In this document: in pieces, positions 16,548 to 27,952 of the stretch | How the letters are laid out: each line of letters opens with the position of its first letter | Numbering within the stretch: the stretch's first letter is position 1 | Assembly (NCBI GenBank): GCA_025998675.1 | Contig: AP024673.1 | Location: 1,577,221-1,641,220 of the forward strand | Origin: Fimbriimonadales bacterium | GTDB taxonomy: Bacteria > Armatimonadota > Fimbriimonadia > Fimbriimonadales > GBS-DC | DNA length: 64,000 bases | Reading direction: 5' to 3' | Made by a program: the position numbers and the translations under genes | Notes under the pieces: generated by a model | The model's database searches: none | What the model was told of the DNA's origin: nothing | The model's input: the letters and a program-made list of their open reading frames with translations, nothing else

Positions 16548-17675
16548 TCAGGCGCGGCGGCGACGCAGCCCCAACAGCCCTGTCAGACCCGCGCCCAGCG
16601 CCATCAGGCTCGCAGGTTCCGGTACGGTGTCCAGCAAGTATGCCTCAAAGCGATTGGTTGACGCGTTGTAGCCGTAGCCCGTGATGTACCGCCCATCGTT
16701 GCTGAGTGCGCGCGCCTCAATAAGGTAGGAGCTTCCACTCAGCAACGATGCATACACCTGGTTCAGATTTTCAGCCTGGTAGCCGCTTCCCGATTGAACC
16801 CAGCGAACAGCTGTATTGCCAACGACGGGCAGGGCAACGCGCCCCACGATAATCGAGCCATCAGCGTTGACCGCAAACGCGGTACTCGTTCCGCCGCCAC
16901 TGAGCGTGCCCAGATCCTGCATCGTACTACCCTGCCAGCGGAACGCGCGTATTTGATTGGAGGCGTTCGTGGCATAGCCCACCACAACAGATCCATCACC
17001 CGACACGCCATACGCAATACTTGTAACACCGCCAAGCGTGCCCAGATCCTGCATTGTACCACCCTGCCAGCGGAACGCGCGTATTTGATTGGAGGCGTTC
17101 GTGGCGTAGCCCACCACAACAGATCCATCACCCGACACGCCATACGCGACACTGGTAGCGCCGCCAAGCGTGCCCAGATCCTGCATCGTACTACCCTGCC
17201 AGCGGAACGCGCGTGTCTGAGCTGAGGCGTTCTGTGAGGAGCCGACCACAGTGTCCCCGTTTGCAGACACCCCATACGCGATGCTCGTGGCGCCGCCGAG
17301 CGTGCCCAGATCCTGCATCGGGCTATTCTGGTAGCGGAATGCACGGAACTGATTGCTGGAGGTTGCCGCCTGTCCAACAATCGTATTTGCATCAGCGGAG
17401 ATAGCGAAGGCTGAACTACTCCCACCGCCAAGCGTGCCCAAATCGGACATTACGCCATTTTCCCAGCGGAACGCACGCGATTGATTATTTGCATTCATCG
17501 CGTATCCAACGGCGACCACAGAACCGCTATTAGAGACGGTCAGGCTATGCGCAACACTCTGGTTCCCGCCCAGTGTCCCAAGCCATATCAGACTCTGGGC
17601 ATGCAGACTCGCTGTTATCGCTATACTCGCTCCGATTAGTCCGTATCGGATAACACTCAGGCGCATATGCTGCAT
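16548..17675 (-). CDS. PEP-CTERM protein with HAF repeats
   Basis: The 375-residue precursor has a signal peptide (RLSVIRYGLIGASIAITASLHA), then six or so HAF repeats of about 44 residues (pattern DLGTLGGxxSxAYGVSxDGxVVVGYATNxxxxxRAFRWQ) likely to fold as a propeller, then VPEPASLMALGAGLTGLLGLRRRRA. That tail is a PEP-CTERM sorting signal: motif, membrane helix and Arg cluster, cut by an exosortase during export to the surface. No exosortase lies in the window. ATG 17675 follows an AGGTGA site; the open frame upstream lacks signals. Surface or biofilm role is inferred from the sorting class. Confidence 0.9.
   Translation of the reverse strand: MQHMRLSVIRYGLIGASIAITASLHAQSLIWLGTLGGNQSVAHSLTVSNSGSVVAVGYAMNANNQSRAFRWENGVMSDLGTLGGGSSSAFAISADANTIVGQAATSSNQFRAFRYQNSPMQDLGTLGGATSIAYGVSANGDTVVGSSQNASAQTRAFRWQGSTMQDLGTLGGATSVAYGVSGDGSVVVGYATNASNQIRAFRWQGGTMQDLGTLGGVTSIAYGVSGDGSVVVGYATNASNQIRAFRWQGSTMQDLGTLSGGGTSTAFAVNADGSIIVGRVALPVVGNTAVRWVQSGSGYQAENLNQVYASLLSGSSYLIEARALSNDGRYITGYGYNASTNRFEAYLLDTVPEPASLMALGAGLTGLLGLRRRRA
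16905..17436 (-). repeat. 132-bp tandem repeats encoding HAF units
   Basis: The sequence CCCAGATCCTGC recurs at 16909, 17041, 17173 and 17305, a constant 132-bp (44-codon) period. Central units are almost identical at DNA level, implying recent duplication or conversion. Confidence 0.9.
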
Positions 17676-17864
17676 AATCACCTCCGAGTTGTTTTGGGGA
17701 GTTTCCCCACTATGGTGCAACACAGCATCTGAATATGCTGTCCATAGACTATAGACTCCAGTTTGTATCGAAAGCGGACACAAAACAGCAAAAAACGGAG
17801 CGTTTTGCGTGTTCCAGAAAGCGATGCGGCAGGAATTTCGTCCTGTGCGCCGAAATCAACTACC

Positions 17865-18332
17865 GTGAGCAAGAGCCTTCAGGAAACCTTCGCGCCGAAC
17901 AGCATCTGCTACGGGTGTGGTCCCGCGAATCCGCAGGGACTGCACATTCGCAGCTTCGTGGGCGAGGGCGGCGAGTTAGTCGCCGAATGGCAGCCGCAGC
18001 CCCATCATCAGGCGTTTCCGAGCGCGCTGAACGGCGGAATCATCGGTACGCTGCTGGACTGCCACTGCAACTGGACAGCGGCGTACCATCTGATGACCAC
18101 GCAGGGTCTGGAACATATCCCCCCCACTGTCACAGCGGAATACACGATTAAGATGCTGCGTCCGACGCCTGTAGACGCGCCTGTGCAACTGCGCGCGCGC
18201 CCTGTGGAGGCGCAGGGCAGCAAGGTCGTCGTGGAAGGCGAGCTGATTGCCAACGGCGCGGTGTGCGCGACCTGCCGCGGCGTGTTCGTCGCGGTCAAGC
18301 CCGGACATCCCGCCTATCACCGATGGGAGTAG
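17865..18332 (+). CDS. PaaI-like hotdog-fold thioesterase
   Basis: The 155-residue product is a 4HBT-type thioesterase that would hydrolyse acyl-CoA or acyl-ACP. Visible are NSICYGCGPANPQGLHI at the N-terminus, the active helix region ALNGGIIGTLLDCHCNWTA, and TAEYTIKMLRPTP. GTG 17865 is preferred because the family begins at this point; the open frame runs back to an ATG at 17763 through the PEP-CTERM promoter area. It ends 3 nt before the Clp gene, so the two form an operon. The 17676-17864 stretch holds the divergent promoters; I saw no further gene. Confidence 0.75.
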   Translation: MSKSLQETFAPNSICYGCGPANPQGLHIRSFVGEGGELVAEWQPQPHHQAFPSALNGGIIGTLLDCHCNWTAAYHLMTTQGLEHIPPTVTAEYTIKMLRPTPVDAPVQLRARPVEAQGSKVVVEGELIANGAVCATCRGVFVAVKPGHPAYHRWE

Positions 18333-18335
18333 CGT

Positions 18336-20408
18336 ATGGAACGACAACTGCTACCCGATGACCATCTGAGCGAAACGGTACACCACCTCGTGGAGGAGGC
18401 GGTGGTGCTGGCGGGTGGGCACGCGCCCGACGCGCGACACCTGCTGCTGGCAATACTGAAAAGCCACGCAGCGATTGTGCAACAACTGCTGCCTGCTATC
18501 GACATCGACGTCCTGGCGGCAGCGGTTCAGAAAGAGCTGCTGAACGCCAACTCACCGATTGCCATCCCCTACGAAGCGGTAATTGATCTGGCGATGCGGA
18601 TTGCCGCGCGCGAGCAGCGTCCCGTGGTGGACGAGATGCACCTGATGAAAGCGATTGCGCTGCTCTCGGAGCTGATTCCGCAGGAAAGCGTCTTTCCCAC
18701 GCCGCCGAAAATCCTGCAAATCGGCGCGAACCTGACCGAGCAGGCGCGTCGGGGCGCGCTGCCGCGCGTGGTGGGACGCGAGCAGGAGGTGGCGCTGCTG
18801 ATAGAGACCCTGTGTCGCCCCGTGAACCCCTACGCCGTACTGATCGGCGTCGAGGGAGTGGGACGGCGCGCGGTGGTGCAGGGCGTCGCCGAGCGCATCG
18901 CCAACGATACCGCGCCCGACCCCCTGCGCAAGCGACCGCTGATTATGCTGTCCCAGCTGTTCGATAACCCCGAACTGATGGGCAAACTCGTCGAGGAAGC
19001 GACCCAGTTGAACGCCATTCTCTACATCGAGGCGTTCGAGAGTTTCCTGAGTGCGCCCGCGCCCCCGATTGAAGCGCTGCGCCAGGAATTCCTCTCGGCG
19101 CTGGTGGCGCGGCGCGTGCCCATCATCGGCGCGGCAAGCAGCCTGCATGGGTTCCGCCATCATATCCATCGCGCGCCTGATTTGCTGAAACGCTTCCAGC
19201 CCATCGAGGTGCGCCCCATGAACCGTGAGGAGACCCTGCAGGTGCTGGTGCAGCTGGCGAGCCTGTTTCAGGAACAGCACGGGCTGGCGTTCCCCAACGA
19301 GACGCTGCAAACGATTGTGCAGGTCGCCGATGAGCATATCCAGCATCGCCCCTTCCCCGACAAGGCGATTCTGCTGATGGATCATGTGGCGGGCAGGGCG
19401 CGGGCGCAGAATCTGGCGTATATCGAGCCGCGCCATGTGTGGGAGACGGCGGGCGTCGTGACGGGGCTGCCCATCGGCGGGGGCGAGACGGCAATGCTTC
19501 ACTCGCTGCAGGGGCTGGAATCGTTTCTCAAATCCCGCGTGATGGGTCAGGACGAAGCCATCGAGACGCTCGTGCGCGTGTTCAGCCTCAAAATCCGCCG
19601 CCTCGACCTGCGCCCTGAACGCCCCAACGGCGTGTTTCTGTTCGCGGGTCCGACAGGCGTGGGCAAGACCGAGACCGCGCGCGCCCTTGCGGAATACTTC
19701 TTCGGCTCGCGCGATAAGATGCTGCGCCTGGACATGAATCAGTTCTACGAGGCGCACACCGCCGCGCGTCTGCTGGGCGCGGAGTTTGGCTATATCGGCT
19801 TCGAGCGGGGCGCGCCGCTGCTCGACTTCGTCGCTGAGAACCCCTTCTGCGTCGTGCTGCTGGACGAGATGGAGAAAGCGCATCCCGAGATACACAAACT
19901 GTTCCTGCAAATCTTCGACGACGGCTATATCATCGATGCACAGGGCAGGCGCGTGTCGTTCGCCGACACGGTGATTGTGATGACCTCCAACCTGCAGCCC
20001 GAAACAGAGGTCGGCTTTTTGCGCGGGGCGCCCAGCCTCGAAGACTGGCGCAAAGCGTTCGCCCAGCAATTCGCGCCGGAGTTTATCAACCGCGTGGACG
20101 CCATCTGCGTGTTCCGCCCTCTGCAGCGCGAGACCGTGCGCCAGATTGTGCGCGAGCGGCTGCTCGAGCAGATTATACATGTCTACCGCAAGCGCAATAT
20201 TGAACTCAGCGTCAGCGACGAGGCAGTGGCGTGGCTGGTGGAGCGCGGTTTCAGCGAGCATTACGGCGCACGCGAGCTGGAGCGCGTGGTGGAACGCAGC
20301 CTGCTGTTGCTGCTGGCGCCCCATGTGCCCGCGATGATACACGCCGTCGATGGCGCGCCCCAGCACTATGAGATTACGGTGCAAAACGGGCAACTGGCGT
20401 TGGGTTAG
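18336..20408 (+). CDS. ClpA/ClpC-like unfoldase with degenerate first ATPase domain
   Basis: The 690-residue AAA+ protein has a ClpN double-repeat domain (1-~115), a first ATPase domain and a second one, without the coiled-coil middle domain of ClpB. In domain 1 the Walker A reads GVEGVGRRA (residues 171-179; Lys and Thr replaced by Arg) and Walker B AILYIEAFESF (catalytic Asp-Glu lost), so it should not hydrolyse ATP. Domain 2 is intact: GPTGVGKTETA near 440, VVLLDEMEKAHPEI near 508, FINRVD. A VGF tripeptide near 559 matches the ClpP-binding loop of ClpC. It probably feeds ClpP. A GGGAG site precedes the ATG. Confidence 0.88.
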   Translation: MERQLLPDDHLSETVHHLVEEAVVLAGGHAPDARHLLLAILKSHAAIVQQLLPAIDIDVLAAAVQKELLNANSPIAIPYEAVIDLAMRIAAREQRPVVDEMHLMKAIALLSELIPQESVFPTPPKILQIGANLTEQARRGALPRVVGREQEVALLIETLCRPVNPYAVLIGVEGVGRRAVVQGVAERIANDTAPDPLRKRPLIMLSQLFDNPELMGKLVEEATQLNAILYIEAFESFLSAPAPPIEALRQEFLSALVARRVPIIGAASSLHGFRHHIHRAPDLLKRFQPIEVRPMNREETLQVLVQLASLFQEQHGLAFPNETLQTIVQVADEHIQHRPFPDKAILLMDHVAGRARAQNLAYIEPRHVWETAGVVTGLPIGGGETAMLHSLQGLESFLKSRVMGQDEAIETLVRVFSLKIRRLDLRPERPNGVFLFAGPTGVGKTETARALAEYFFGSRDKMLRLDMNQFYEAHTAARLLGAEFGYIGFERGAPLLDFVAENPFCVVLLDEMEKAHPEIHKLFLQIFDDGYIIDAQGRRVSFADTVIVMTSNLQPETEVGFLRGAPSLEDWRKAFAQQFAPEFINRVDAICVFRPLQRETVRQIVRERLLEQIIHVYRKRNIELSVSDEAVAWLVERGFSEHYGARELERVVERSLLLLLAPHVPAMIHAVDGAPQHYEITVQNGQLALG

Positions 20409-20434: not shown

Positions 20435-20815
20435 ATGAATACGCCTGCTGAACTGCGTTATACCCGAAGCGACGAATGGGTGCGAATCGAGGGCGATACC
20501 GCGACCATCGGCATCACCGACTATGCTCAGTCCGAGCTGGGCGATATCGTGTTTCTGGAGCTGCCCGAACCCGGACGCTACCTGCAGGTCGACGAAACCT
20601 TCGGCGTGATCGAGTCGGTCAAGGCGGCGTCCGACCTGTACGCGCCGCTGGAAGGTGAGGTGCTGGAGGTCAACTCCGCTCTGCAATCCGCGCTGGAGAC
20701 CATCAATCAGGACCCCTACGGCAAGGGCTGGATGATTAAGATGCGCCTGAGCGACCCCAGCCAGGCGGCGAGCCTGATGAGCGCGGACGAGTACCGCGCC
20801 TACCGAAACCTCTGA
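20435..20815 (+). CDS. gcvH: Glycine cleavage system H protein
   Basis: GcvH carries the aminomethyl intermediate of glycine on a lipoyl arm between the P, T and L proteins. The 126-residue protein has the usual start YTRSDEWVRIEGDTATIGITDYAQSELGDIVFLELP and the lipoylated Lys63 in ESVKAASDLYAP. A TACAAT at 20410-20415 and a GGAGG site precede the ATG. It is followed after 8 nt by gcvPA, so they are an operon. Confidence 0.96.
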   Translation: MNTPAELRYTRSDEWVRIEGDTATIGITDYAQSELGDIVFLELPEPGRYLQVDETFGVIESVKAASDLYAPLEGEVLEVNSALQSALETINQDPYGKGWMIKMRLSDPSQAASLMSADEYRAYRNL

Positions 20816-20823
20816 GGCAAACT

Positions 20824-22167
20824 ATGCGCTACATCCCGCATACTGAGCAGGACATCCAGCAGATGCTGGAGGCGATTGGCGTCGCATCGATTCGCGAGCT
20901 ATTTCGGGACATCCCCGACGATTTGTATATCGAGGGCGAGCTGCCTGTGCCGCCCGCGCTGGACGAACACGCGCTGTTTCGGCGGCTGAGCCAGCTGGCG
21001 GCGCAGAACGCTGACACGACGCGCTGGGTGAGCTTTCTGGGCGCAGGCGCGTATGACCATTTCATCCCCGCAGCGGTGGGCGCCATCATCAGTCGCGGCG
21101 AGTTCCTGAGCGCGTACACCCCCTACCAGCCCGAAGCGAGTCAGGGGCTGCTGCAGAGCATTTTCGAGTTCCAGACGATGGTGTGCGAGCTGACGGGGAT
21201 GGAGGTCGCCAACGCCTCGATGTACGACGCCTCGACCGCGCTGGCGGAATCCGCGCTGATGGCGTGCCAGATTACGGGGCGCTCGAAGGTGGTGGTCTCG
21301 CAGGCGGTGCACCCGCACTATCGGCAGGTGCTGCGCACCTACCTGTGGACGAACAGCCGCCAGCTGGTGGAGGTTCCCGCGCGCGAAGGGCTGACCGACC
21401 TCGACGCGCTGAGCGACGCGCTGGACGACGAGACGGCGTGTGCGATGGTGCAGTACCCGAACTTTTTCGGCGCGATTGAGCCGCTGGCGCCTGTGTCGGA
21501 GGCGGCGCATCGGGTGGGCGCGCTGGCGATTGCGTGCGTCGACCCGATGGCGCTGGGCGTGCTGAAACCGCCGGGCGACTACGATTTCGACATCGTGGTC
21601 GGCGAGGGGCAGGGACTGGGCAACGCGATGGGCTTTGGCGGACCGATGCTGGGGCTGTTCGCGTGCAAGCAGGCGCACCTGCGGCGCATTCCCGGACGCA
21701 TCGTCGGGCAGACGACCGACGCGGAAGGCAGGCGCGGCTATGTGATGACCCTGCGCACGCGCGAGCAGGACATCCGCCGCGAGAAGGCGACTTCCAACAT
21801 CTGCACCAACGAGGCGCTGTGCGCGTTAGCCAGCACGGTGTTCCTGTCGGCGCTGGGCAAGAGCGGCTTCCGCGAGCTTGCCGAAACCTGCACCCAGAAG
21901 GCGCACTACGCCGCCGCGCAACTGACCCAGATAGACGGCGTGCGCCTGAAATACCCCAGCGCGCCCTTTTTCAAAGAGTTCGTGCTGCATCTGCCGCGCC
22001 CCGCGCACGAGGTGTGCAACGCGCTGCTCACGCACAACATCATCGCCGGGCTGCCGCTGGGCGATTACGATTCCTCGATGACGCACGACCTGCTGGTGTG
22101 CGTCACGGAGACGCGCACGCGCGAGGAGATCGACGCTTTTGTCGACGCGCTTCGCCAGGTGTTATAG
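20824..22167 (+). CDS. gcvPA: Glycine dehydrogenase (decarboxylating) subunit 1
   Basis: This is the N-terminal half of the two-subunit P protein, which decarboxylates glycine. The 447 residues contain the family motifs FLGAGAYDHFIPAAV, YTPYQPEASQGLLQ, NASMYDASTALAE and GEGQGLGNAMGFGGPMLG. The PLP lysine belongs to subunit 2 (gcvPB), which does not follow here; the next element is the TPP riboswitch. gcvT is likewise not in the window (the YgfZ at 58576 is a relative, not GcvT). Confidence 0.95.
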   Translation: MRYIPHTEQDIQQMLEAIGVASIRELFRDIPDDLYIEGELPVPPALDEHALFRRLSQLAAQNADTTRWVSFLGAGAYDHFIPAAVGAIISRGEFLSAYTPYQPEASQGLLQSIFEFQTMVCELTGMEVANASMYDASTALAESALMACQITGRSKVVVSQAVHPHYRQVLRTYLWTNSRQLVEVPAREGLTDLDALSDALDDETACAMVQYPNFFGAIEPLAPVSEAAHRVGALAIACVDPMALGVLKPPGDYDFDIVVGEGQGLGNAMGFGGPMLGLFACKQAHLRRIPGRIVGQTTDAEGRRGYVMTLRTREQDIRREKATSNICTNEALCALASTVFLSALGKSGFRELAETCTQKAHYAAAQLTQIDGVRLKYPSAPFFKEFVLHLPRPAHEVCNALLTHNIIAGLPLGDYDSSMTHDLLVCVTETRTREEIDAFVDALRQVL

Positions 22168-23652
<1,485 letters not shown>

Positions 23653-23691
23653 CCGACCGTCTGGGGCGACACACTTGCGCCCCAGACTGCC

Positions 23692-24765
23692 TCAATTCCG
23701 TTCCTGCGCCTGACGGATGGCGGAGTCCAGCGCGCGCGTGAACTCATCCAGCGAAGCGACCTGCGTAGCAATCAGAGCCAGCTCCTCCAGCGTCTCCAGC
23801 GCAGGTACTTGAGCCAGTTTCTGCTCCAGCGCGAGCGCAGCGTCCCCAAAACGCGTCCTAAGAGCGCGCCTGGTTAACAGAACCAGGCTCTCGCGCCTAC
23901 CAGCGTCCAGCCCCTGTTGCAGCCCCTGTTGCAGTCCCTGTTGCAGCCCCTTCTCGAAGCCTTCCTCGAAGCCCTCTTCCAGGGCAAGCAGCTCCAGGCT
24001 GGTGAGCGGCCACTCGGACTGCTCCTCGATCTCGCGCACGAACTCCTTGAACCGCTTCTCGTATTCCTGCGGCAGCGCCATAAAGTAATCCACCACCTTG
24101 TAGAGTTCTGTGACCTGCTCAGGAGTATACCCCTTCGATTGCATGGCGCGTATCAGGGCGATTTTCTCTCGGAGCGTCAGTTCGGGGCGACCACGGCTCT
24201 TGAGCGCGCGCAGATGCGCCAGCACCACCAGCGCAAACGGGTTCTCCGACTGCTCCAGCTCCGCCTCGTCAAAGTCCAGAAGCTTGACAGTGGGAAACTC
24301 AAATCGGAGATTGCACCCTGCCAGTTGACGCTCGAACACGCTCGGACGCCAGTCGGGGTCGTCGTCTGCCAGTATCGCCAGACTGATGAGTTCAGGGAAG
24401 TCATTCGCGTCGAAAATACGATAGAAGTATACAAACATGCGCAGGGGAAAGTTCGGGTCGCGCTGCGCCTGAATTTCGATGTGCAACAGCACTACCCGCG
24501 CTTTGCCGTCCCGAAAATGCACCTGCACCAACACATCGACGCTCCGTATGCCGCGTCGCAGCTGGGAAGGCGCCAGACGATGCAGCTCCGTGCGCAGAAA
24601 CACCACAGGCTGGCTCCAGTCAATCTGCGCGTGCAAAGATGGGAAGAGCAGGAGCAGGCATTCAGGCAGAAAGACCTGGAGCGCGTATTTCCACCCTTCA
24701 TCAAAGCCGCGTTGGACTCGCCGTCGTTTGCGCATCGCGCGCCGTAGATTCCAGCCGCTCGCCAT
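23692..24765 (-). CDS. Rpn-family (PD-(D/E)XK) nuclease with DUF4351-like C-terminus
   Basis: The 357-residue protein matches the Rpn/transposase_31-like group, which in E. coli stimulates RecA-independent recombination. The nuclease core is seen in SVDVLVQVHFRDGKARVVLLHIEIQAQRDPNFPLRMFVYFYRIF, with Asp and the E-I-Q pair. Then comes a helical region with a run of GLQQ repeats (12-bp DNA repeats around 23907-23960) and a terminal DUF4351-type helical pair. The start is uncertain: ATG 24765 lies right against AGGAGGT, too close; ATG 24735 is too far. It diverges from cysM. Confidence 0.8.
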   Translation of the reverse strand: MASGWNLRRAMRKRRRVQRGFDEGWKYALQVFLPECLLLLFPSLHAQIDWSQPVVFLRTELHRLAPSQLRRGIRSVDVLVQVHFRDGKARVVLLHIEIQAQRDPNFPLRMFVYFYRIFDANDFPELISLAILADDDPDWRPSVFERQLAGCNLRFEFPTVKLLDFDEAELEQSENPFALVVLAHLRALKSRGRPELTLREKIALIRAMQSKGYTPEQVTELYKVVDYFMALPQEYEKRFKEFVREIEEQSEWPLTSLELLALEEGFEEGFEKGLQQGLQQGLQQGLDAGRRESLVLLTRRALRTRFGDAALALEQKLAQVPALETLEELALIATQVASLDEFTRALDSAIRQAQERN

Positions 24766-24791
24766 ACCTCCTGCACGCGTATCAGGTGGGG

Positions 24792-24811
24792 TATAATTTA
24801 GCCACGCTAAA
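24792..24811 (+). promoter_or_regulatory. cysM -10 with overlapping inverted repeat
   Basis: GGGGTATAAT ends at 24797 and the perfect inverted repeat TTTAGC-CAC-GCTAAA (24797-24811) covers the expected start of transcription. It could be an operator or a short mRNA hairpin. A 37-nt leader with AGGAGG follows. Confidence 0.5.
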
Positions 24812-24834
24812 TACAGGAGGTATCCCAACGCGCT

Positions 24835-25818
24835 ATGAGTTATCCGTGCTATATGCGTCTGCCGCATGAGCTGCAGCAGGCCACCGAAATTGTGGATTTG
24901 ATTGGCTATACGCCCTTGATTCGGCTGCGTCGTGTGACGCGCCATCTCCCGGAGAGTATCGAGATTTACGGTAAAGCGGAGTGGTTCAACCCCGGCGGAT
25001 CGGTCAAGGATCGCCCGGCGTGGAACATCGTGCGCACAGCCATCGAACGCGGGGAACTGCATTCGGGCAAGCGGCTGCTGGACGCCACTTCGGGCAACAC
25101 GGGAATCGCCTTCGCGATGATTGGGGCGGCGCTCGGCTTCGGCGTCACGCTCTGCATGCCCGCGAATGTGAGCGTGGAGCGCAAACGCATCCTGAAGGCA
25201 TATGGCGCGGAGGTCATCTTCACCGACCCGCTGGAAAGCTCCGACGGCGCGATTCGCAAAGCGCGCGAACTCTACGCCCAGCATCCCGACCGCTACTACT
25301 ACGCCGACCAGTATAATAACCCTGCCAACTGGCAGGCGCACTACGAGACCACGGGCGTCGAAATCTGGCAACAGACGGAGGGGCGAATCACGCACTTCGT
25401 AGCGGGGCTGGGCACGACGGGCACTTTTGTGGGCGTTGGGCGACGCCTGCGCGAATACAAGCCCGATATTCAGCTCATCTCGCTGCAGCCCGACTCGCCG
25501 TTTCACGGGCTGGAGGGATTGAAGCATTTAGAGACGGCGATTGTGCCGGGCATCTACGACCCGACGCTGGCAGACGCGAACCTTGAGATTAGCACGGAAG
25601 ACGCCTACGCGATGGCGCGGCGGCTCGCACGCGAGGAGGGCTTGCTGGTGGGCGTTTCAGCGGCGGCGGCGGTCGTCGGCTCGTTGCGCGTCGCGGAAGG
25701 CATTCTGCGCGACGCCGAAGCGCGGGGCGTCGAACCGCACGCGGTCCTCGTCACCATCCTGTGCGACAGCGCGGATAAATACCTTTCCGAGCGATTCTGG
25801 GATGACGAGACGCCATGA
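24835..25818 (+). CDS. cysM: Cysteine synthase, CysM-like
   Basis: A PLP-dependent beta-replacement enzyme making cysteine from an activated serine. The 327-residue protein has the PLP Lys58 in NPGGSVKDRPA, the substrate loop TSGNTGIA, and AGLGTTGTFVGVGR. The overlap with a downstream Mec-like JAMM hydrolase mirrors the actinobacterial CysM-CysO-Mec route, in which sulfur comes from a thiocarboxylated carrier protein; that suggests O-phosphoserine as substrate, consistent with serC in the window. The carrier gene is not here. A cystathionine beta-synthase-like role cannot be excluded. Confidence 0.85.
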   Translation: MSYPCYMRLPHELQQATEIVDLIGYTPLIRLRRVTRHLPESIEIYGKAEWFNPGGSVKDRPAWNIVRTAIERGELHSGKRLLDATSGNTGIAFAMIGAALGFGVTLCMPANVSVERKRILKAYGAEVIFTDPLESSDGAIRKARELYAQHPDRYYYADQYNNPANWQAHYETTGVEIWQQTEGRITHFVAGLGTTGTFVGVGRRLREYKPDIQLISLQPDSPFHGLEGLKHLETAIVPGIYDPTLADANLEISTEDAYAMARRLAREEGLLVGVSAAAAVVGSLRVAEGILRDAEARGVEPHAVLVTILCDSADKYLSERFWDDETP

Positions 25819-26234
25819 CGCTGAGACTTCCCCCCGATGTGGCGGCGTCCATCCGCGCCCACGCCCGCGACGAGTACCCGCACGAATGCTGCGGCGCGCT
25901 GCTGGGCACGGAAGCAGGCGACACACGCATCATCCAGCAGGTCATCCGCCTTGCGAATGAGCGCGCCGACCAGCGCGAACGGCGCTTCTATGTCAGCCCG
26001 CAGCAGGTGCTGATGGCGGAGCGTCAGGCGCGCGCGGCGGGGTTGCTCCTGCTGGGGTTCTATCACTCGCATCCCGACCATCCCGCCATCCCCTCCGAGT
26101 ACGACCGCGAACACGCCCTGCCCTACTACTCCTATCCGATTGTCTCCGTCGTTGGGGGCGAGCCTGTCGAGGTGCGCTCGTGGCGGCTGCTTGAGGACCG
26201 CTCGGGGTTTACGGAGGAGCGTGTGTCCGACTGA
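25815..26234 (+). CDS. JAMM/MPN+ metalloprotease, Mec-like
   Basis: The 139-residue protein is a minimal JAB1/MPN domain with a full zinc site: Glu24 in HECCGALLG, and HSHPDHPAIPSEYD (His84, His86, Asp97; H-x-H-x10-D). In the Mec group the enzyme releases cysteine from the C-terminus of the CysO carrier protein. Its ATG overlaps the cysM stop (ATGA), so it is translated together with it. Known relatives also cut other ubiquitin-like carriers, so the substrate is inferred from context. Confidence 0.85.
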   Translation: MTLRLPPDVAASIRAHARDEYPHECCGALLGTEAGDTRIIQQVIRLANERADQRERRFYVSPQQVLMAERQARAAGLLLLGFYHSHPDHPAIPSEYDREHALPYYSYPIVSVVGGEPVEVRSWRLLEDRSGFTEERVSD

Positions 26235-26236
26235 GG

Positions 26237-26252
26237 TATACTCTCCCCCGTC
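26237..26252 (+). promoter_or_regulatory. Promoter of the fab operon
   Basis: GAGGTATACT (hexamer 26237-26242) ends 10 nt before the fabD ATG and overlaps the end of the previous gene; leader at most a few nt. Confidence 0.55.
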
Positions 26253-27203
26253 ATGGCTATTGCGGTCGTTTTCCCAGGGCAGGGAGCGCAGCGTCCAGGG
26301 ATGGGACGCGAACTCTACGAGCGCAGCGCCGCCGCGCGACGGGTGTTCGAAATCGCCAGTGAGTTTTCGGGACGCTCGTTTCCCCAGCTATGCTTCGAGA
26401 CCGACGAGGAGACGCTCAAGCGCACGGAGAACGCCCAGCCCGCGCTGCTGGTGACCTGCTATGCGGCGTGGGAGGCGCTGCGCGAGGCGGTTCCCGACTT
26501 CGCCCCCGATTTCGTTGCGGGACACAGCGTCGGCGAGTACCCTGCGCTGGCGGCGTCGGGCGTGTGGACGCTCGAAGAATCGCTGCGCTGGGTTGAACAG
26601 CGCGCCAAAGCCATGCATGTGCTGGCGTATCAGACGCCGGGCACGATGGCGGCGGTGCTGGGGCTGACGGGCGACCAGGTGGAGGCGGTCTGCCAGCAGG
26701 TGCAGCAGGAGACGGGCGAAGTGGTCGTGCCGACCAACTACAACGCCCCCCATCAGATTGTGATTTCGGGAACCGTGAACGCGGTGCAGGTCGCTGCCCA
26801 GCGGCTGCAGGAGGCGGGCGCGCGGCGGATTGTGCCCCTGATGGTCGCGGGCGCGTTCCATTCGCCGCTGATGCAGCCCGCCGCCGACCTGATGACCGAA
26901 GCCTACCGCGAGGCGAACTTCCAGAAGCCTGTGTACCCCTTTTTCTCGACCATCGAAGTGCGCGTGCTGGACGACCCGGAGGAGATTCGACAGGTCATGG
27001 GACAGCAAATCGCCCGCCCGGTGCGCTGGCAGCAAAGCGTAGAGGCGATGCGCGCGCTGGGCGTGGACACTTTCATCGAACTGGGCGTCGGCGATGTGCT
27101 GTCGGGGCTGATTAAACGAATCGCTCCCGATGCGCGCACGCTCCGTGTGGTAGACTCTAAGACGCTGGACGAGACCGTCGCAGCTTTGCGAGGCGTTGCA
27201 TGA
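26253..27203 (+). CDS. fabD: Malonyl-CoA:ACP transacylase
   Basis: FabD loads malonyl groups on acyl carrier protein. The 316-residue protein starts AIAVVFPGQGAQRPGMG and holds the active Ser92 in GHSVGEYPAL (usually GHSLGEY); the catalytic His is in VAGAFHSPLM near residue 200. It is the first gene of fabD-fabG-acpP-fabF and overlaps fabG by 4 nt. fabH and plsX, often upstream, are absent; cysM-mec lie there instead. Confidence 0.95.
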   Translation: MAIAVVFPGQGAQRPGMGRELYERSAAARRVFEIASEFSGRSFPQLCFETDEETLKRTENAQPALLVTCYAAWEALREAVPDFAPDFVAGHSVGEYPALAASGVWTLEESLRWVEQRAKAMHVLAYQTPGTMAAVLGLTGDQVEAVCQQVQQETGEVVVPTNYNAPHQIVISGTVNAVQVAAQRLQEAGARRIVPLMVAGAFHSPLMQPAADLMTEAYREANFQKPVYPFFSTIEVRVLDDPEEIRQVMGQQIARPVRWQQSVEAMRALGVDTFIELGVGDVLSGLIKRIAPDARTLRVVDSKTLDETVAALRGVA

Positions 27204-27952
27204 ATCTTTCGTTAGAGGGACGCGTGGCGCTCATCACAGGCGCAGGCAGAGGGATTGGCAGAGCGGTTGCCGAGACGCTGGCGACGGCGGGCGCACGGGT
27301 CGCCCTGCTGAGCCGTACTGAGGCGAATGCACAGGAAGTCGCGCACGCCATCGAGACGGCGGGCGGACACGCGCTTCCCTTCGGCGGCGATGTCGCCAGC
27401 CCCGACACGGTAGACGCCGTGATCGAACAGACCCTGAAACACTGGGAGCGGCTCGACATCGTGGTCAATAACGCGGGCGTCACGCGCGACACTCTGCTGC
27501 TGCGCATGAAGGACGACGACTGGGACGCCGTGCTGCAGACCAATTTGAAGGGCGCGTTTCTGTGCAGTCGCGCCGCGCTCAAGCCCATGATGCGCCAGCG
27601 CTGGGGTAGAATCGTGAACATCAGTTCGGTGGTTGGGCTGACAGGCAATGTGGGACAGGCGAACTATGCGGCGTCCAAAGCCGCACTGATCGCCTTCACC
27701 AAAAGCGTCGCGCTGGAGATGGGCAGTCGCGGGATTACCTGCAACGCCGTCGCGCCCGGACTGATTGAAACGGATATGACGCAGGCGATGCCGCAACAGG
27801 CGCGCGACTATGCGCTGCAGCGTATCCCCGTCGGGCGATTCGGAACCCCCGAGGACATTGCCTATGGGGTACTCTTTCTGTGCAGCGACTACGCCGCGTA
27901 CATCACAGGACAGGTCTTTATCATCGACGGCGGACTAACCGTCGGAATCTAA
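27200..27952 (+). CDS. fabG: 3-oxoacyl-ACP reductase
   Basis: FabG reduces beta-ketoacyl-ACP with NADPH. The 250-residue short-chain dehydrogenase has [17 protein letters not shown] (cofactor), [14 protein letters not shown], the Ser-Tyr-Lys triad in [22 protein letters not shown], and the end [17 protein letters not shown]. It overlaps fabD as ATGA. Confidence 0.96.

Follow-up and report, generated by a model that had tools for sequence, protein, structure and literature searches.

Here, we report a 690-residue Clp/Hsp100 protein of a Fimbriimonadales bacterium that has lost the ATPase motifs of its first ring (D1) and kept those of its second ring (D2), a division shared by 14 of 14 orthologues. 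Based on this division, we consider it likely, with a probability of roughly 0.6, that the protein is an unfoldase powered by D2 and docking onto ClpP, the D1 ring serving as a scaffold and as the substrate entry. The gene lies in a stretch of 64,000 nucleotides, which we call the window. The features discussed below are listed with their window coordinates.

17763..18332, + strand: gene of a 4HBT-type thioesterase (PF03061, 21.4 bits at a cut-off of 20.6)
18336..20408, + strand: predicted D1-dead Clp/Hsp100 unfoldase, an open frame of 690 amino acids (14 orthologues, including the window's own)
18336..18701, + strand: N-terminal domain with Clp-N-like helical repeats, about residues 1-122 (predicted helices)
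18702..19415, + strand: D1 AAA+ module, active site lost, about residues 123-360 (predicted fold kept)
18846..18872, + strand: degenerate D1 Walker A, GVEGVGRRA, residues 171-179 (alignment of the 14 orthologues)
19023..19037, + strand: degenerate D1 Walker B, YIEAF, residues 230-234 (alignment of the 14 orthologues)
19506..20321, + strand: D2 AAA+ module with lid, motifs intact, about residues 391-662 (Pfam and motifs)
19647..19670, + strand: D2 Walker A, GPTGVGKT, residues 438-445 (alignment)
19788..19799, + strand: D2 pore loop, GYIG, residues 485-488 (GY[VI]G in 13 of 14 orthologues, SYAG in one)
19851..19868, + strand: D2 Walker B, VVLLDE, residues 506-511 (14 of 14 orthologues)
20010..20018, + strand: xGF loop, VGF, residues 559-561, candidate ClpP-docking loop (VGF in 9 of 14 orthologues, MGF in 5)
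20088..20093, + strand: D2 arginine finger, NR, residues 585-586 (14 of 14 orthologues)
20265..20273, + strand: D2 sensor-2, GAR, residues 644-646 (14 of 14 orthologues)

With D1- and D2-type AAA+ modules behind an N-domain that is assigned by its predicted fold only, the protein is classified as a double-ring Hsp100/Clp unfoldase. In Pfam, D2 matches AAA_2 (151.7 bits) and ClpB_D2-small (55.4 bits), the lid of D1 matches AAA_lid_9, and D1 itself matches AAA_16 (39.5 bits, cut-off 32.6); the N-domain gives no Clp_N match. In the structure model, this domain shows predicted helices at residues 13-26, 33-43, 45-51, 57-67, 79-92 and 100-110, and some ClpA, ClpC and Hsp104 chains align with the model from residue 5-13 onward. 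The NCBIfam models of ClpA, ClpB and ClpV score 334-379 bits, far below their cut-offs of 885-1232; the best of them is ClpA (TIGR02639, 378.8 bits against 993.15), and ClpB (TIGR03346) reaches 358.2 bits against 1232.1. These matches are a warning for annotation, as the protein appears to be neither of the two. Class I Hsp100/Clp proteins have working Walker A and Walker B motifs in both rings, and here the D1 motifs are gone in 14 of 14 orthologues.

The segment between D1 and D2 measures 43 residues, compared with 47 in E. coli ClpA, 93-104 in the ClpC sequences and 168-169 in those of ClpB. By this comparison the middle domain is absent, be it ClpC-sized or a long ClpB coiled coil. The first-pass annotation had recorded the missing coiled coil correctly, and such a lack is normal for ClpA-type proteins. 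Its label "ClpC-like" appears inexact: in our trees the protein falls outside ClpA, ClpB and ClpC, a common clade of the D1-dead proteins with ClpC is disfavoured (p-AU 0.006 when constrained), and there is no middle domain. Among the plasmid-borne relatives listed, the best shared 33% identity in one search and 29-32% in another; where annotated, they are named AAA family ATPase, ClpA or TssH, and one (L113) was included in the trees. A function in anti-phage defence was considered and set aside, PADLOC giving matches of at most 97 bits to AAA-type models, the best to DolB, all in the D2 ATPase region.

How much of the D1 active site is lost? Aligned with canonical Clps, the window protein has GVEGVGRRA in place of G..GVGKTA and YIEAF in place of F-I-D-E. 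All 14 orthologues carry R-R for the K-T of Walker A. Residues E173, G174, G176, R177, R178 and A179 are invariant, residue 175 is V in 13 and T in one, and four codons are used at each of R177 and R178, i.e. synonymous changes have occurred at invariant residues of a dead motif. In Walker B, E232 replaces D throughout, and the catalytic E at position 233 has become P in 12 orthologues and A in two. The KYR(G) pore loop, whose loss the first-pass annotation had not mentioned, is missing from D1 in 14 of 14, and the arginine finger of the window D1 keeps one of its two arginines (LLKRFQP for ALERRFQP). The exchange of K for R in Walker A, taken alone, would still permit a weak binding of nucleotide by D1. 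The roles of the motifs are those commonly assigned in Clp rings, apart from those covered by PMC9663308. Because all orthologues, in 14 concordant assemblies, share this loss, chance and sequence error are ruled out as the cause of the motif loss. Indeed, the inactivated first ring that had been read from a single sequence is a conserved trait, and none of the orthologues found across the phylum has normal D1 Walker motifs.

The D2 set of the window protein is complete in the alignment, with GPTGVGKT, GYIG, LLDE, TSN, NR and GAR, and with VGF in the position of the ClpP loop. We searched this place, between D2 sensor 1 and the arginine finger, for [LIVM]G[FL], the admission of M being our own reading, and found [VM]GF in 14 of 14 orthologues; we know of no MGF described as a ClpP loop. 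In the ClpB of the same genome, no xGF-type motif was found in the alignment. Thus, the intact second domain and the VGF candidate noted earlier are both borne out, and the xGF loops suggest, short of proving it, that the protein binds ClpP. The idea of a natural single-motor Clp, with ring 1 dead and ring 2 intact, is strongly supported by these sequences.

Is the dead D1 ring widespread? A first search of 41 genomes and a search of 291 genomes of the phylum each gave 14 genomes with an orthologue, the window included in both, and in the latter the score fell from 399.8 to 169.4 bits after the 14th match. The protein is confined to one family, in which 14 of 18 genomes and five of six genera carry it. 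The four family genomes without it are 65%, 68%, 81% and 100% complete; the last one (G015), which alone among them is fully complete, encodes a ClpA-type protein (L021, gene at L171:1912-4158) with both rings intact, which groups with E. coli ClpA at 100/100 in the D2 tree. A scan with two peptide patterns over one genome per species (84,980 species) returned 13 loci, which match the other 13 D1-dead genomes; 11 are labelled Armatimonadetes/Armatimonadota or Fimbriimonadales/Fimbriimonadia, and two are labelled only "bacterium".

In four close pairs, dN/dS ranged from 0.076 to 0.21 for the whole gene, from 0.078 to 0.196 for D1 and from 0.037 to 0.132 for D2. The mean pairwise identity within the group is lower in D1 (0.712) than in D2 (0.786), the reverse of what we found for ClpC (0.733 in D1, 0.652 in D2) and ClpB (0.839 and 0.721). 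D1 is under purifying selection, with a constraint somewhat weaker than that on D2. Conservation is poor in the N-domain, the end presumed to receive substrates: its columns have a mean identity of 0.618, and dN/dS reaches 0.51 in one pair. This counts against our preferred explanation. An AlphaFold model from the 14 sequences (mean pLDDT 79.9, pTM 0.59) keeps the AAA+ fold of D1. Its top Foldseek match is the ClpC model 9a66, and VIA-align ranks first the ClpA chain of a ClpAP structure (6w20; Z 34.1, rmsd 5.9, 524 aligned), in a tie with a ClpC chain (Z 33.3, rmsd 7.1, 545 aligned). The predicted D1 fold fits a scaffold ring and indicates nothing further.

We propose that six subunits would stack as a hexamer, in which the D1 ring, with neither normal ATP binding and hydrolysis nor a gripping loop, would form a collar for assembly and hand on substrates held by the N-domain. 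D2 would grip the chain with its GYIG loops, pull it by ATP hydrolysis and feed it into ClpP, which it would meet through the VGF loop. Docking is suggested by the conserved xGF loop together with a ClpP match (L080), the only one in the window genome, which adjoins the ClpX-type gene. In E. coli ClpA, D2 is described as the main motor and D1 as an auxiliary motor and recognition site (PMC9663308), and a naturally dead D1 above an active D2 is reported for Pex1/Pex6 (PMC10518020); the window protein would take this division to its end within the Clp family. It would do so as an extra unfoldase, since the genome already has ClpB (L001), ClpC (L002), a ClpX-type (L004) and an HslU-type protein (L005), the last two labels being given here from length, sequence and neighbours. 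The genome also has one ClpS (L081), and no match to a Leu/Phe-tRNA-protein transferase was found in it.

The canonical ClpC, a second clpC that the first-pass annotation had advised to look for, opens another explanation, in which the D1-dead protein would enter mixed rings with ClpC and tune its activity, as Pex1 does with Pex6, where dead D1 domains are described as sitting in mixed rings (PMC10518020). However, a modifier would need neither a complete D2 motor of its own nor a ClpP-type loop, and the D1 of the protein is far diverged from that of ClpC, so that we regard such a role as unlikely. An AAA_2 search of the window genome for a reciprocal partner gave only ClpB, ClpC, the ClpX-type and HslU-type proteins (two matches for the latter) and the D1-dead protein itself. 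Another genome with a D1-dead protein (G014) encodes a 907-residue Clp (L170:1026-3746) with an intact D1 and a C-terminal response-regulator receiver domain; its D2 has GKT and misses the Walker B D-E and the arginine finger. No close counterpart was found in the other 17 family genomes, the next best being the ClpA of G015 at 36% identity. Without a partner in the window genome and without close counterparts of this protein, a pair of the Pex1/Pex6 kind is not general. It is likewise rather improbable that the xGF loop is a relic and that the protein remodels its substrates without degradation. For such a remodeller speaks that the ClpI class is described as splitting into members with and without ClpP loops (PMC10149685), and that M, not V, precedes GF in five of the 14 orthologues; against it, the xGF loop is kept in all of them, and xG[FLY] persists in 16 of 16 of the D2-dead relatives described below despite their fast-evolving D2 (mean pairwise identity 0.407). 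A decaying or wrongly assembled gene, finally, would account for several active-site residues being lost together, and we give it next to no credit, as the loss is identical in assemblies of five genera, the dN/dS of D1 is well below 1, the dead motif is fixed and the window comes from a single-contig genome.

In the window, the thioesterase gene ends 3 bases upstream of the D1-dead gene, and its true start probably lies downstream of the listed TTG, judged from relatives of 157 residues. It stands directly upstream in 7 of 10 loci of the genus (the window, L067, L068 and L070-L073), not in L074 and L078, nor within the 425 bases of upstream contig in L069. Outside the genus, it was found upstream in 0 of 4 loci, one of which (L077) offers only about 360 bases upstream. 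The operon with a thioesterase that had been proposed thus holds as an adjacency within the genus and not beyond it, and we do not treat the neighbour as part of the system. Between a methyltransferase gene and the thioesterase gene, the window encodes a repeat-bearing protein (16548-17783) with a tail that we take to be PEP-CTERM-like; in L067 the two flanking genes are adjacent. Downstream, gcvH follows the D1-dead gene after 26 bases. A link to glycine cleavage was rejected, and gcvH, like the thioesterase gene, is not counted as belonging to the system: among the other 13 loci (flanks of up to 10 kb where contigs allow), gcvH occurs in L067 alone, and there at the far end of an inverted block. 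This block, from gcvH through genes past cysK (window 20435-27952), is inverted relative to the closest relative (L067:7344-14671), and for this reason gcvH lies next to the Clp gene only in the window.

Can the second ring be lost instead? Among the borderline matches of the phylum search, we found two proteins (L053, L064) with an intact D1 and a D2 without Walker motifs. A search of the 291 genomes with L064 yielded at least 16 such D2-dead proteins (L082-L097; wider regions L153-L166) in 16 genomes, the count being a lower bound as three candidates were scored per genome. They belong to seven families (f7, f12, f13, f20, f30, f33 and f42), all other than that of the D1-dead group. Their D1 carries GPAG[VC]GKT in 15 of 15 covered proteins (L097 starts after the motif) and both D-E and the R-R finger in 16 of 16. 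In D2, GKT, D-E, the N-R finger and GAR are all missing in 16 of 16, the YVG pore loop is retained in 16 of 16, and the ClpP-type loop reads xG[FL] in 15 and xGY in one. The D1 KYR is missing in 15 of 15 covered proteins, as it is in the D1-dead group. The dead D2 evolves fast overall; in one close pair, pN was 0.07 and pS 0.795 within it, and this dead ring is therefore constrained, too. That the nearest relatives of the D1-dead protein would have the opposite ring dead goes beyond what the first-pass annotation had seen.

A genome that already has a D2-dead gene (G215) carries two more, on one strand and about 4 kb apart (L167:749-9902), both of which have also lost the D2 pore loop and kept an LGF and an MGF loop. 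The KYR tyrosine is also missing from four Clps (L101, L102, L103, L105) that have two intact rings and no middle domain, so that its loss is not unique to the dead groups. One fragment (L099, G090) has an intact D1, its D2 being outside the covered part. Another protein (L098, G251) has an intact D1 lacking KYR, and the D1 tree places it with the D2-dead group. The beginning of its D2, RPNGVFLFAGPPGVGQTS, lies at the contig end and resembles that of the D1-dead group except for Q in place of K; the D2 Walker A reads GPPGVGQTS (L098:2950-3001), where the contig stops. We see in this protein a possible intermediate, or else an error of the assembly at the contig end.

The neighbours of the D2-dead genes, read in 13 of 14 loci (all but L159 of G190), were varied. 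In G089 (L162:4701-11000), the gene is convergent on a Pup ligase-family gene, which is followed by two proteasome subunit genes and another gene of the Pup ligase family, as identified by Pfam, one of the subunits only at the cut-off; in G091 (L163:5067-12000), homologues of this set lie beside the D2-dead gene. In G071 (L153:4955-8164), a Leu/Phe-tRNA-protein transferase gene precedes the D2-dead gene on the same strand at a distance of 66 bases, a possible link to the N-degron pathway for this Clp.

Are the two dead groups related? Trees were built from 62 rows, after removal of L104, whose match contains a stop, and of L107, which duplicates L021: the D2 tree has 60 rows (without L098 and L099), the D1 tree 61 (without L097) and the joint tree 49, ten near-duplicates and the three partial rows being omitted. 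No tree includes L170 or the tandem copies of G215. The labels ClpC, ClpB and "other" were assigned here, and L063, labelled ClpC, groups with ClpB. The D1-dead and D2-dead proteins together are separated from ClpA, ClpB, ClpC and the other Clps at 100/99 in the D2 tree, at 94/82 in the D1 tree (not starred; L098 and L099 fall on the side of the dead groups) and at 100/98 in the joint tree. From these trees we regard the two groups as probable sisters, with no greater confidence since the trees are unrooted and each group sits on a long branch in one of the two domains.

Long-branch attraction could have joined two groups with separate origins, each from a Clp that has no middle domain. The branches leading into the two groups measure 0.7 to 1.9 changes per site, so that their union rests on long-branched trees, a point against our explanation, and both rings are intact in other Armatimonadota Clps that lack the middle domain, four of them also missing the KYR tyrosine. 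Yet each domain tree shows the pairing although one of the partners has no long branch there, the D2-dead group in the D1 tree and the D1-dead group in the D2 tree. Joining the D1-dead group with the intact Armatimonadota Clps without a middle domain (p-AU 0.011), the D2-dead group with the intact others (0.011) or the D1-dead group with ClpA (0.039, a narrow result with only two ClpA rows) is disfavoured. We therefore doubt separate origins, while conceding them about one chance in three.

Building on the sister relation, we tentatively propose, at slightly less than even odds, a single Armatimonadota Clp clade in which one sister lineage would have lost the ATPase of D1 and the other that of D2. 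Both lack the D1 KYR grip and keep the ClpP-type loop, and the D2 tyrosine pore loop is found in all but two of the copies examined; the grip would be fixed in D2, and the motor would have been free to settle in either ring. This reading is weakened by the two D2-dead copies without a D2 pore loop and by the wider occurrence of the KYR loss. If it is true, the D2 of the D1-dead lineage would drive itself, and the live D1 of the D2-dead lineage must drive a dead but gripping D2. The division of labour between the two Clp/Hsp100 rings has mostly been approached through engineered ClpA, ClpB and Hsp104 mutants. Here, evolution has seemingly made and kept both single-ring versions in one clade, a natural test of the role of each ring, and a comparison of the two lineages would test whether one and the same ring has to provide grip, force and delivery to ClpP. 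We found no report of paired opposite ring losses in titles and abstract openings of the open-access literature, which does not show that none exists. The reciprocal D2-dead case makes the D1-dead protein more interesting than it would be alone.

Among known systems, Pex1/Pex6 shares the inactive first ring over an active second one (PMC10518020), but it is a eukaryotic type II AAA+ heterohexamer, not a Clp, with no peptidase and with a D1 that still binds ATP, and it serves as an analogy only. The plant SMXL/SMAX1 proteins are likewise atypical members of the Clp family, but PMC9133912 presents them as regulators of signalling whose middle domain is longer and in which the IGF/L motif is absent. 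ClpI of Actinomycetota is, like the D1-dead protein, an extra double-ring Clp class of one phylum beside ClpB and ClpC, whereas its ATPase modules are given as intact and its middle domain as ClpC-sized (PMC10149685). ClpC itself has two modules, an xGF/xGL-type loop and a ClpP partner, but differs in its middle domain and its two active rings, and the window genome has it as a separate gene. With ClpA of the E. coli ClpAP system, the window protein shares the two AAA+ modules, the N-domain, the absence of a middle domain and the ClpP-type loop in D2, whereas the D1 of ClpA is active and equipped with KYR pore loops, and that of the window protein has lost its Walker motifs and this loop.
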